A DNA stretch of 64,000 bases, from the NCBI GenBank assembly GCA_937868765.1, contig CALMNL010000003.1, positions 620,001-684,000 of the forward strand. Reading direction: 5' to 3'. The number at the start of each line of letters is the position of its first letter. The first letter of the stretch is position 1. This DNA is from an uncultured Desulfatitalea sp. (GTDB taxonomy: Bacteria; Desulfobacterota; Desulfobacteria; Desulfobacterales; Desulfosarcinaceae). Shown here in pieces: positions 27,707 through 45,783 of this stretch. The notes under the pieces are model-generated. The model made no database searches. It was not told where the DNA came from and saw only the letters and a list, made by a program, of their open reading frames with translations. The translations under genes were made by a program, and so were the position numbers.

Positions 27707-28555
27707 TTAGAACAGTCTCATGACGGACTGAGCCGCCTGAGAAGCCAGGCTCAACGAGGTGGTGCCCAGAGACTGACGGGTCTGGAGCATCAACATGTTG
27801 GCGCCTTCTTCGTTCATGTCGGCATTGGTCAGTTCAGCCGCGCCGTCCTCCAGGGTGTTGATCATACCGGCAGTGAAGTCCTGACGAATGGTGATCGTGC
27901 TCAGGCTGGTCGACAGTTTCTGAGCTTCGCTGCGCAGGGCGGAACGGGCGCCATCCAACTGGGTAATAACCGAGTTGATGGTCGCTTTATCAGCGGTTCC
28001 GCCTGCACTGACCCAAGCCGTGGAGGCGAAGGTCACGAGGCTCAGCGTAGCGCCTTGGGCCGAAGCGTCGAAGCCGGTCATGGTCAGCGAAGACTGACCC
28101 GTTTCATCAAACTTCACCGTATGGGTGATCGCCGTGCCATCCAGCAGGTTGACGCCCTTGTAACCGGAGTCGTCACCCAATTGATCGATCTGGGTCAACA
28201 CGGAATCATACTGGCCTGCGAGCGTCTGGATTTCAGAGGTCGTAGCGGCGGAGAGGGCGGATTGGGCCAAAGATTTCGCAGAAGCGATCAGGGCCGTGAT
28301 GCCTTCCACGCCTTGGTTGGCCGCTTGAATCAACTGCACCGATTCAGACATCTCGTCTTTACGAGCGGCCAAGTCGGTTGCTCTCTGACGATGGCCCAAA
28401 GCGGTGAAGTAGTTGACGGGATCGTCAACGGCGTTCTGAACCCGCAGGCCTGAGGCCAGTCTTTTCTGGGTGGTCTCCAGCAGCTTGGAGGTCTGCTGCA
28501 GGTTGAACAGGTTTTTACGCATGCCGGAGGTTAAAGTGATGGGTGAAGATGCCAT
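27707..28555 (-). CDS. fliC: Flagellin
   Basis: 282 residues; main subunit of the external filament, exported by the flagellar type III system. The N-terminal D0/D1 region reads ITLTSGMRKNLFNLQQTSKLL, then RLASGLRVQNAVDDPVNYF; the C-terminal D0 region ends SLASQAAQSVMRLF. The variable middle is short (~residues 140-190), so domains D2/D3 are reduced or absent. The sequence style (NLQQT at the N-terminus, VNYF) is like alphaproteobacterial flagellins, matching the adjacent flbT/flaF. The ATG follows AAGGAG. A sigma-28-type promoter ~150 bases upstream gives a leader of ~135 nt. Likely glycan acceptor for the island upstream. Confidence 0.95.
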   Translation of the reverse strand: MASSPITLTSGMRKNLFNLQQTSKLLETTQKRLASGLRVQNAVDDPVNYFTALGHRQRATDLAARKDEMSESVQLIQAANQGVEGITALIASAKSLAQSALSAATTSEIQTLAGQYDSVLTQIDQLGDDSGYKGVNLLDGTAITHTVKFDETGQSSLTMTGFDASAQGATLSLVTFASTAWVSAGGTADKATINSVITQLDGARSALRSEAQKLSTSLSTITIRQDFTAGMINTLEDGAAELTNADMNEEGANMLMLQTRQSLGTTSLSLASQAAQSVMRLF

Positions 28556-43053: not shown

Positions 43054-43845
43054 TTGGACTTAGCCACGCTACTCGGAATCATCGTCGCCAGCGGGTTGGT
43101 AATTGTCTCCATTTTGATGGGCGGCCCCGGAACCTGGTTCATCGACTATGCTTCTTTGATGATCGTAATCGGCGGCACCATGGGAGCCACGCTGATCAAC
43201 TATCCGTTGTCGGATGTCGTGAGCATGTTCAAAGTCACCAAGAACGCCTTCCGGCATCGGACCCCCAACCCCATGGGGTTAATTCCTGTTATGATTGAAT
43301 TCGCTAAAACCGCACGCAAAGAAGGCATTCTGACCTTTGAGAAACATATCAGAGAGATAGACGATCCTTTCCTGGCCCGCGGGTTGCAGATGGCCGTGGA
43401 CGGCCTGGAAGCCGATGCCATTGCCGAGGTCCTGGGGACCGAGATCATGTGGCTCGAGGAGCGTCACCGCCTGGGCGCCGAAATTTATACCACCATGGGG
43501 ACCTTTTCTCCTGCCGTGGGCATGCTGGGCACCATCATCGGTCTGGTGCAGATGCTCATGCAGATGAAAGACCCTTCGGCCATCGGCGCGCCTATGGCGG
43601 TGGCTTTACTGACGACCTTTTACGGCACCATGCTGGCCTACCTGCTTTTTCTGCCCATCGCCGGCAAGCTGCGGGTGCGCAGCAAGCAGGAGATACTGGC
43701 CAAGCAGATGGTGATGCACGGCATTTTGGCGATTCAGGCCGGGGACAACCATCGCATTGTGGCGGAAAAGCTGCGCTCCTTCCTCTCTCCGGCCGCGCGG
43801 TTGGCCCATGATAAAGAGGTGCGCGATGGCGCTGCCGCTAATTAG
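43054..43845 (+). CDS. motA: Flagellar stator protein MotA
   Basis: 263 residues from the TTG at 43054, chosen because GGGAGG lies five bases upstream and MDLATLLGIIVASGLVIVSI is the normal MotA start; the frame opens earlier at 42994. Four membrane helices (~1-22, 32-52, 150-172, 185-205). TFSPAVGMLGTIIGLVQMLMQM and the region with charged residues before helix 3 (KTARKEGILTFEKHI) match MotA. Forms the ion channel with MotB subunits. The end overlaps the next start by 20 bases, so stator genes are coupled. Confidence 0.95.
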   Translation: MDLATLLGIIVASGLVIVSILMGGPGTWFIDYASLMIVIGGTMGATLINYPLSDVVSMFKVTKNAFRHRTPNPMGLIPVMIEFAKTARKEGILTFEKHIREIDDPFLARGLQMAVDGLEADAIAEVLGTEIMWLEERHRLGAEIYTTMGTFSPAVGMLGTIIGLVQMLMQMKDPSAIGAPMAVALLTTFYGTMLAYLLFLPIAGKLRVRSKQEILAKQMVMHGILAIQAGDNHRIVAEKLRSFLSPAARLAHDKEVRDGAAAN

Positions 43846-44542
43846 AATAACAGGACCCGGAAAGGATGACCGGCCGGACATTCAGAACGGCTGGCAGACG
43901 GTCTATGCCGGTTTTGTCATGATCATGTTGAGCTTTTTTATTCTGCTCACCTCCTTTTCGTCACTTGCGCCTTCCAAGATATCCCGCTTCGTTAGCTCGT
44001 TCTCCCAGGCTGTCAGCGTCTTGGAAGGGGGGAAGCGTCTGGAGGAAGGCAAGACCATTCAGACCGCCGAGCCGAAGGTGCTCCCCCAGGAGCAAATCAC
44101 CGCTCAACTTTTCGAGCAGGTGCGCCAGACGAGCCATGATGTAGGACTCGACCAGGTGGTTCTGCAGCGCACCCCCAAGGGCGTGGTATTGACGTTGACC
44201 GACACGCTGTTGTTCGACAGCGGCAGGGCACGCTTTTCCTCTGCGGCCTATCCCCGCCTGGAAAAGATCGGCCGATTGATCCAACGCATTCCGGTGCCGG
44301 TGGAAATACAGGGACATACGGACAATCAACCGATCCGCACCGCCGAATTTCCGTCCAACTGGGAACTGTCCACAGCCCGATCGATTTCGGTACTGCGATA
44401 CTTGATCGAGAATCCGGAAATCGCCCCCCAACGGTTATCGGCCGTGGGATTCGCTCAATTTCAACCCGTGGTCGCCAATGATTCGCCAGCGCATCGGTCG
44501 ATGAATCGGCGGGTGGATTTCGTTTTCCAGGTCGAGAGGTAG
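43826..44542 (+). CDS. MotB-like protein 1, lacking the proton-binding Asp
   Basis: 238 residues from the ATG at 43826 with AAAGAGGT upstream. One membrane helix near 27-50, then an OmpA/MotB peptidoglycan-binding domain (~130-235): LTLTDTLLFDSGRARF, QGHTDNQPIRTAEFPSNWELSTARS and NRRVDFVF. In MotB the helix reads YADF, with an essential Asp that carries the ion; here it is YAGF with Gly at residue 29 (codon GGT). The next gene is a second MotB with the Asp intact. This protein therefore cannot conduct ions alone and may be a structural or regulatory partner in a mixed stator, or a linker to the cell wall. Confidence 0.85.
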   Translation: MALPLIRITGPGKDDRPDIQNGWQTVYAGFVMIMLSFFILLTSFSSLAPSKISRFVSSFSQAVSVLEGGKRLEEGKTIQTAEPKVLPQEQITAQLFEQVRQTSHDVGLDQVVLQRTPKGVVLTLTDTLLFDSGRARFSSAAYPRLEKIGRLIQRIPVPVEIQGHTDNQPIRTAEFPSNWELSTARSISVLRYLIENPEIAPQRLSAVGFAQFQPVVANDSPAHRSMNRRVDFVFQVER

Positions 44543-44554
44543 GGGACTGGCGTC

Positions 44555-45289
44555 ATGGCCAAGCGAACTTTTAGACAGGCACCCAAGCAGGAGAAGGCCC
44601 CGGCATTGGCCTGGATGACCACCTTCAATGATTTGATGACGCTATTGATGGTCTTTTTCGTCCTGCTGTTCGCCATGGGCAACCTGGACCCGGAAAAGTT
44701 CAAAACCTTTCAAAACCAGCTGCAAAGCGGACTTGGGGTAATGCAAGCCGGCACAAATGCCGGTGACGGCATTCCCAGCGATCGCCAGAGGGTAACGACG
44801 CCTGACCAGAGCCCCCCGGAAGCATTGCCGCAAGCGGCCGGTTCCGAAAATTTCCAGGCATTGTCCCGCACCCAGGGACTGGAGGCCGAATACACACCCA
44901 AGGGCATTCGCATCACCTTAAGCGATGCCTTGCTCTTCGACTCGGGCAGCGCCCGCCTGACGGAGTCGGGACTTCGCCTCTTAGACAGGATTGGGACGGT
45001 CATCAAACCCATGCAGCGCCAGGTGCGGGTCGAGGGGCACACGGATGACCGCCCCATTGCCACGACCCGCTACCCTAGCAATTGGGAGCTTTCGGCAGCC
45101 CGTGCCATCGGCGTGGTGAACTATTTCATCGATCAGACGGGCATACCGGCATCCTTGCTTTCGGCCGCAGGGTACGGCGCGTTCAGACCGCGTGCCGCCA
45201 ATGACAACGAGACGCACCGGGCAGCCAATCGCCGGGTGGAGATCATTTTAGGCCCGGTGAAGACATCCCCAGCGGATGTTCAGGGATAA
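44555..45289 (+). CDS. motB: Flagellar stator protein MotB (second copy, Asp intact)
   Basis: 244 residues. A short cytoplasmic start, then one membrane helix with WMTTFNDLMTLLMVFFVLL, where Asp 26 is the expected ion-carrying residue. The OmpA-like domain has ITLSDALLFDSGSARL, VEGHTDDRPIATTRYPSNWELSAARA and HRAANRRVEIIL. Anchors MotA to peptidoglycan and forms the ion path. It starts 12 bases after the Asp-less MotB-like gene and 20 bases before the fliL start, so both MotB genes are co-transcribed with motA. Confidence 0.93.
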   Translation: MAKRTFRQAPKQEKAPALAWMTTFNDLMTLLMVFFVLLFAMGNLDPEKFKTFQNQLQSGLGVMQAGTNAGDGIPSDRQRVTTPDQSPPEALPQAAGSENFQALSRTQGLEAEYTPKGIRITLSDALLFDSGSARLTESGLRLLDRIGTVIKPMQRQVRVEGHTDDRPIATTRYPSNWELSAARAIGVVNYFIDQTGIPASLLSAAGYGAFRPRAANDNETHRAANRRVEIILGPVKTSPADVQG

Positions 45290-45309
45290 GCTCAATGGGA
45301 GGAGAAAAA

Positions 45310-45783
45310 ATGTCCAAAAAAGGAATCATGATGGCCCTGGGCGGATTTTTGCTTTTAATGGCGTTGATGGGCGGTGGCTTTTTCATGATGTGGCAGAAGA
45401 TGAACCAGAGCATTGCCCAGATCCAGGCCCAGAATGCCGGAGGGAAAGCGGCGGAGGAAAAGGCCAAGGAGGAGGAGACCATCCGGGCCACCTACAAAAT
45501 GGACACCATGATCGTCAATCTGGCTGATCAGGGCGGCAAGCGTTACCTCCGGGTTACCATGGAGATGGAATTGAGCTCTCCCGAGGTGCTGGATGAGATC
45601 ACCAAACGGTTGCCCCAATTGCGTGACACCATCCTGATGATTCTGCCAAGCAAACAGTATGCTGAGATCAGCACCACCGACGGCAAGATCGCCCTGCGGG
45701 ACGAACTCATCGCAAAGCTGAACAGCATTTTGAAAAAAGGTACGATCACGACCATTTACTTCACAGAATTCGTCGTTCAATAG
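45310..45783 (+). CDS. fliL: Flagellar basal body protein FliL
   Basis: 157 residues from the ATG at 45310, which has GGGAGGAG upstream; an in-frame ATG at 45295 overlaps that site. One membrane helix (~6-26, GIMMALGGFLLLMALMGGGFF), a charged linker, then the periplasmic FliL domain with YKMDTMIVNLADQGGKRYLR and the C-terminal YFTEFVVQ. FliL associates with the stator and basal body. It lies between the mot genes and fliM as is common. Confidence 0.93.
   Translation: MSKKGIMMALGGFLLLMALMGGGFFMMWQKMNQSIAQIQAQNAGGKAAEEKAKEEETIRATYKMDTMIVNLADQGGKRYLRVTMEMELSSPEVLDEITKRLPQLRDTILMILPSKQYAEISTTDGKIALRDELIAKLNSILKKGTITTIYFTEFVVQ

Follow-up and report, generated by a model that had tools for sequence, protein, structure and literature searches.

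A tandem pair of unlike MotB proteins, one without the ion-carrying aspartate, suggests a flagellar stator with a single ion site

Two unlike MotB proteins, one of which is without the ion-carrying residue, occur in many sulfate-reducing bacteria and some of their relatives. In an uncultured Desulfatitalea sp. these proteins are encoded by a tandem motB1-motB2 pair behind a single motA gene, with Gly in MotB1 at the position at which MotB2 retains the ion-carrying Asp; the loss of the Asp is fixed, the Asp-bearing partner and the gene order are maintained among relatives, and the helix that has lost the Asp is constrained and has diverged from the helix of its partner. Such a pair suggests a lopsided natural rotary motor in which a single ion site works, not two. 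It appears moderately probable that motA, motB1 and motB2 encode one stator, in which a MotA ring would surround an obligate MotB1-MotB2 heterodimer with a single ion site.

Operon layout and protein domains

The window, that is the whole stretch of 64,000 nucleotides that was analysed, is taken from contig 3 (bases 620001-684000) of a 5.36 Mb genome and holds the stator genes inside a large flagellar cluster. The relevant features, in positions of the window, are:

43054..43845, + strand, motA, the sole ring-subunit gene of the operon, PomA-like
43826..44542, + strand, motB1 (P0001, 238 aa), the Asp-less first MotB
43889..43963, + strand, residues 22-46 of MotB1, predicted to form the transmembrane helix, which is the best conserved part in class I relatives (see below)
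43910..43912, + strand, codon GGT for Gly29 of motB1, at the position of the ion-carrying Asp
44210..44509, + strand, OmpA-like wall-binding domain of MotB1 (residues 129-228), conserved residues intact
44555..45289, + strand, motB2 (P0002, 244 aa), with the ion-carrying Asp and a wall-binding domain
44630..44632, + strand, codon GAT for Asp26 of motB2, the only ion-carrying Asp of the pair
45295..45783, + strand, fliL-like gene, next downstream, assigned from sequence and position

The initial annotation of this region had described a motA followed by two genes with OmpA/MotB domains, the first with Gly 29 (GGT) and the second with Asp 26, and genes and codons alike were recovered as described. 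The three genes are tightly packed: motA starts with the TTG at 43054, which is preceded by GGAGG and at which position Leu, Val or Met is translated in motA homologues; motB1 starts with the ATG at 43826 and overlaps motA by 20 bases; and a gap of 12 bases separates motB1 from motB2. Behind the fliL-like gene follow fliM- and fliN-like genes, named from sequence and order. At the start of the window, positions 1-26000 hold many large open reading frames of TPR-repeat, glycosyltransferase-like and methyltransferase-like type beside a flagellin-like gene (27707-28555, minus strand), a gene set which by eye resembles flagellin glycosylation islands.

In Pfam, MotB1 matches MotB_plug with 34.9 bits and OmpA with 57.9 bits, and MotB2 with 59.5 and 67 bits, all above the curated cut-offs of 24 and 27.2, respectively. 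MotB1 has the domain composition of a flagellar MotB without its ion-carrying Asp, which is present in MotB2. The Asp of the GHTD motif, the Arg of LSxxR and the NRR motif, which we take to be peptidoglycan-binding residues by analogy with work on OmpA and Pal, are all found in both proteins of the window. An AlphaFold2 model of MotB1, built on an alignment of 12 rows (mean pLDDT 74.7, pTM 0.59), predicts helices at residues 22-46 and, in the position of the plug, 49-66, as well as an OmpA-like domain, with low confidence for residues 57-84; its best fold matches in the PDB are the periplasmic domains of MotS, MotB, TssL and PomB.

The ring subunit matches MotA_ExbB (98.8 bits), with MotA_N just under its cut-off (25 vs 27.3), and its sequence profile best matches the solved MotA and PomA chains 8ucs, 6ysf and 8bri. 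Protons had been presumed as the coupling ion in the initial annotation, yet the best NCBIfam match of MotA is the sodium-type PomA, under the cut-off (257.6 vs 341 bits), and Thr positions in TM3 and TM4 align with the Thr residues of PomA, which are presumably sodium-binding.

Asp loss and pairing among relatives

Within the family, 30 genomes including that of the window were searched, and 12 of them gave an unambiguous full-length MotB1 match (E no higher than 1.6e-61). Gly29 is invariant in all 12 aligned rows, namely that of the window and those of 11 orthologues with 44-78% identity, as are the surrounding Trp23, Tyr27, Phe30, Phe37 and Phe38; the Asp of MotB2 is equally present in 11 of 11 aligned rows including the window, in an FND motif throughout. 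In the twelfth genome (G029) the contig breaks off at MotB1, and a MotB match is found where another contig ends. As Gly29 is common to the window and 11 orthologues, a sequencing error or a strain mutation was ruled out. This alignment of the pair with homologues had been proposed as a check along with the two-MotB reading, and the outcome that would have spoken against that reading, a Gly unique to this sequence and a gene absent from relatives, was not what was found, although 18 of the 30 family genomes gave no full-length motB1 orthologue. Fragments occur in two of these, a short one with 55% identity to MotB1 in G026 and one in G005 that resembles second copies most; in the others the best matches are more distant MotBs. 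Judged from these sequences the operon is not universal in the family, some of the searched genomes being incomplete.

More distant relatives were collected from contigs of named genomes (best 80 of 360 relatives), an order sample of 146 genomes and phylum samples of 297 and 395 genomes; only the best loci of each sample were read and 20 further regions were fetched, giving 221 loci with 271 distinct MotB-like rows. Rows were dropped where the aligned region was not the MotB helix (L138, L143), where the site was uncovered (L063, first copy of L104) or where a MotB helix was absent (L033, L034); the first copy of L191, which reads Ser elsewhere in the analysis, is absent from the pair counts, its helix probably lying outside the scanned part. 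Among tandem MotB pairs the first copy is Asp-less in 85 of 91 cases and keeps the Asp in six, and the second copy bears the Asp in 91 of 91, numbers which count distinct, phylogenetically non-independent sequences from loci drawn by similarity to Asp-less queries and hence are not prevalences. Residues at the site of the 85 Asp-less first copies are Gly (37), Ser (37), Ala (8), Thr (2) and Asn (1), none of them charged. Three rough classes of Asp-less MotBs can be discerned: class I, to which the window belongs, with Gly or rarely Ser, class II with mostly Ala and class III with Ser.

MotBs not recognised as paired comprise 80 with the Asp, at least two of which properly belong to the second copies (the partners in L063 and L191), and three without it (L011, L146, L206). 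In the first 201 loci, 79 distinct Asp-less MotBs were counted; an automatic rule placed an Asp-bearing MotB downstream of 71 of them, six more (L107, L160, L182, L183, L185, L191) were seen by eye to be partnered, and the remaining two, L011 and L146, end at a contig edge. The later cases L206, L232 and L242 likewise have an Asp-bearing partner. The second MotBs of L107, L182, L183, L185 and L191 keep the Asp helix and have weak overall MotB profile scores (best 62-73 bits), which suggests a divergent periplasmic part.

The layout of motA, Asp-less motB and Asp-bearing motB recurs across the sample of the organism's own phylum and in the phylum of an Anaeromyxobacter MAG, which we take to be Myxococcota. 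In the latter, 146 genomes were searched and 25 loci returned, four of which (L222, L223, L232, L242) have an Asp-less/Asp pair and two of which (L227, L243) were unreadable by the pair rule; in the phylum of a Thermodesulfovibrionia MAG, none of the 25 loci returned from 118 genomes has such a pair. On the other hand, and counting against the heterodimer, a tandem pair does not require the loss of the Asp, since six pairs (L144, L201, L213, L214, L215, L216) keep it in both copies. The helices of L144 and L213-L216 are 77-100% identical, and the wall domains of L213-L216 only 24-27%, resembling the operon of Aquifex.

As to the origin of the pairs, first and second copies fall into largely separate groups in a tree of 99 rows. 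In a careful tree of 66 rows, with long terminal branches and many open forks, the Asp-less state needs five changes, at least three of them forced by starred branches; the Asp-bearing first copies L201, L213 and L216 are grouped among the Asp-less ones, and an unpaired Asp-bearing MotB (L093) and a second copy (L212) also lie inside the Asp-less group. The AU test does not reject a topology that unites the first copies in a single clade (p-AU 0.384), so the pairs may go back to a single old tandem duplication. Repeated loss of the Asp from the upstream copy would be the more striking reading of these trees, which regain of the residue or misplacement of sequences may also explain.

Constraint on the Asp-less MotB and the roles it would allow

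Among the 38 class I pairs, the mean between-species identity of the Asp-less helix, with the site excluded, is 0.73 vs 0.52 for the wall domain; a decaying duplicate was thereby rejected, the Asp-less helix being the most conserved region. In the Asp-bearing class I partners the values are 0.82 for the helix and 0.51 for the wall domain, and in 80-odd unpaired MotBs 0.51 and 0.40, so that a well-kept helix is usual for MotB; in the other classes, too, the Asp-less helix is less conserved than that of its partner (0.51 vs 0.68). The good conservation usual for MotB helices, together with an Asp-less helix below its partner's, counts against the heterodimer. The plug region, to which no weight is given, is slightly more conserved in the first than in the second copy in class I (95% interval of the difference 0.027 to 0.101), with no clear difference in the other classes (-0.012 to 0.064).

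Within the class I helix, position -2 of the first copies is Tyr in 38 of 38 and the site is Gly in 37 of 38; at position +3, all 38 partners have Thr, for which every one of the 38 first copies has Leu, Met or Ile. With Gly at the site and no Thr at +3, both polar site residues are gone and the helix is kept. This composition bears on a reading in which MotB1 would carry ions via another residue or would be a fading duplicate with little function, the least probable of those weighed here. Sodium could conceivably be coordinated by a Ser (37 of 85) or an Asn (1 of 85) in place of the Asp, and Glu occurs at -5, near the helix start, in 19 of the 38 class I first copies; that position is, however, Gln in 15 of 38, Gln24 of the window's MotB1 among them, and is therefore not a fixed ion carrier, the site Gly and the Leu, Met or Ile at +3 speak against conduction by the class I copies, and fading is made less likely by the conservation of the helix.

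The helices of the two copies have also moved apart. In class I the first copy shares 27% of its helix (range 14-36%) and 47% of its wall domain with its own partner, the helix value being lower in 38 of 38 pairs, whereas in the six Asp-Asp tandem pairs helices are 45-100% and wall domains 24-58% identical, the helix value being higher in 6 of 6. In unpaired MotBs with 40-50% identical wall domains (1156 comparisons) helix identity averages 53%. Outside class I, the helix is 33% and the wall domain 35% identical to that of the partner, and the helix is lower in 23 of 46 pairs; coverage sufficed for this comparison of first copy and partner in 84 of the 85 Asp-less pairs. That the helix is lower in only half of the non-class-I pairs counts against a heterodimer.

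These comparisons weigh upon the main rival to the heterodimer, an unlikely one, in which two stator types would share MotA, MotA-MotB2 homodimers conducting ions and non-conducting MotA-MotB1 homodimers occupying sites, braking, tuning or recruiting parts. A site-occupying unit would need what MotB1 indeed keeps, a constrained helix, a helix in the plug position and, in class I, the wall-domain residues, and chimeras of the Aquifex proteins in E. coli provide a precedent for one MotA that works with either of two MotBs separately (PMC4525482). Two stator types, however, sit poorly with an Asp-bearing partner in every case in which the contig continues and with the fixed gene order, nor would they account readily for helices that stay alike in Asp-Asp tandem pairs and diverge in Asp-less/Asp pairs.

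The wall domain speaks to the same question. The Arg of LSxxR is kept in 91 of 91 second copies and lost in 13 of 85 Asp-less first copies (12 Met, 1 Lys), which should weaken the anchoring of a MotB1 homodimer; GHTD has a different residue in place of its Asp in 4 of 85 first copies, and second copies show Asn there in 5 of 91 and no aligned residue in 1 of 91, the Asn in the presumed anchoring partner counting against the heterodimer. In class III, Met replaces this Arg in 12 of 12 Asp-less first copies (L074, L079, L080, L085, L090, L094, L097, L101, L102, L105, L110, L112), and several Asp-less MotBs of this class have in common an extended C-terminal tail in which a pattern like FTYKxFDFRIF recurs.

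An accessory cell-wall anchor, one of two roles put forward in the initial annotation, would place MotB1 as an anchor or periplasmic scaffold near the motor and outside the MotA complex. The complete OmpA-like domain that most relatives share with the window's MotB1, GHTD, LSxxR and NRR residues included, and closest structural matches to the periplasmic domains of MotS and MotB, agree with such a role, and anchoring by the MotB1 of the window in particular is conceivable as its conserved wall-domain residues are intact. As a general account it fits less well and is improbable: the transmembrane segment of a mere anchor should drift, yet it is the best conserved region, and the wall-domain Arg is the residue that 13 of 85 first copies have given up, vs 0 of 91 second copies.

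A proposed stator with one ion site and its known relatives

In the published 5:2 model, a symmetric MotB dimer carries two equivalent ion sites which alternate and drive 36-degree steps. In the heterodimer proposed here labour would be divided, with MotB2 supplying the sole ion-carrying Asp (with Thr at +3) and the wall anchor, and MotB1 completing the axle with the other helix, a small uncharged residue at the Asp position and a plug and wall domain of its own. With one ion site on the axle, only that site would pass the MotA subunits, which by the geometry of the 5:2 model would result in five ions and five 72-degree steps per turn, not ten 36-degree steps. We infer the physical heterodimer, conduction through a single site and the step size; the fixed Gly, the pairing and its order, the constraint on the helix, the divergence of the helices, the loss of the Arg and the lone motA overlapped by motB1 all count for the heterodimer.

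On the opposite side of the balance stand two further Asp-bearing MotB genes of the genome. One (L002, FGD motif) lies on contig 3 at about 685.7 kb, just beyond the window near the flagellar cluster, with an adjoining MotA gene; the other (L001, YADF motif) lies on contig 4 at about 261.6 kb, adjoined by a weakly MotA-like gene (27 bits). As each of the two has a MotA-like neighbour, motB1 might conceivably find a partner elsewhere, which counts against the heterodimer, and the organism may have more than one stator in use. A mixed MotA-MotB1-MotB2 stator, the second role put forward in the initial annotation, nevertheless emerges as the best-supported reading from the pairing, the fixed order and the helix constraint, and in it the two MotBs would form the heterodimer. 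That asymmetric rotary motors of the composition MotA5-MotB1-MotB2, with one ion site, a heterodimeric axle, 72-degree steps and five ions, are widespread and have repeatedly lost the Asp from the same member is a wider claim to which we give slightly less than an even chance.

With the MotAB and PomAB stators (MotA5MotB2) the present system shares the MotA ring subunit, the MotB with helix, plug and OmpA-like domain and the location in a flagellar cluster; unlike these it has two dissimilar MotB genes, not a single one, and the essential Asp is missing from one of the two. The A-B-B gene order itself is already known from Aquifex aeolicus, in which one motA is followed by motB1 and motB2 with N-terminal and transmembrane regions reported as 97% and periplasmic regions as 23% identical, and in which either MotB, once fused to the periplasmic part of the E. 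coli protein, supported some motility together with MotA and without the other MotB (PMC4525482). Here, in contrast, the helices differ strongly (on average 27% identical in class I, far from the near-identical helices of Aquifex), the wall domains resemble each other more, and the Asp is missing from one of the helices. Equally, the gliding motor AglR-AglQ-AglS of Myxococcus combines one MotA-like with two MotB-like proteins, AglQ and AglS being listed as ExbD/TolR-type and both described with the Asp, and whether they form homo- or heterodimers is stated there as unknown (PMC9389320, PMC9120999, PMC3169522). The present proteins are instead of flagellar MotB type with OmpA domains: MotB_plug and OmpA are the only Pfam matches of MotB1 and MotB2 (E up to 0.01), and MotB1 is without the Asp. 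In searches of an open-access library, no paper on an Asp-less MotB paired with an Asp-bearing MotB was recognised, and the main text of a 2025 study on MotAB evolution is without the terms aspart-, D32, heterodimer and Desulfo- (PMC12505986).

If the proposed stator is true, these bacteria would possess a built-in different gearing of the flagellar motor. A one-site stator that has evolved in nature would directly test the need for two sites and how torque and the number of ions per turn are set, and would also bear on whether two-B motors such as AglRQS are heterodimers. Furthermore, the pair serves as a warning not to annotate every MotB-like gene as a working ion-channel subunit.
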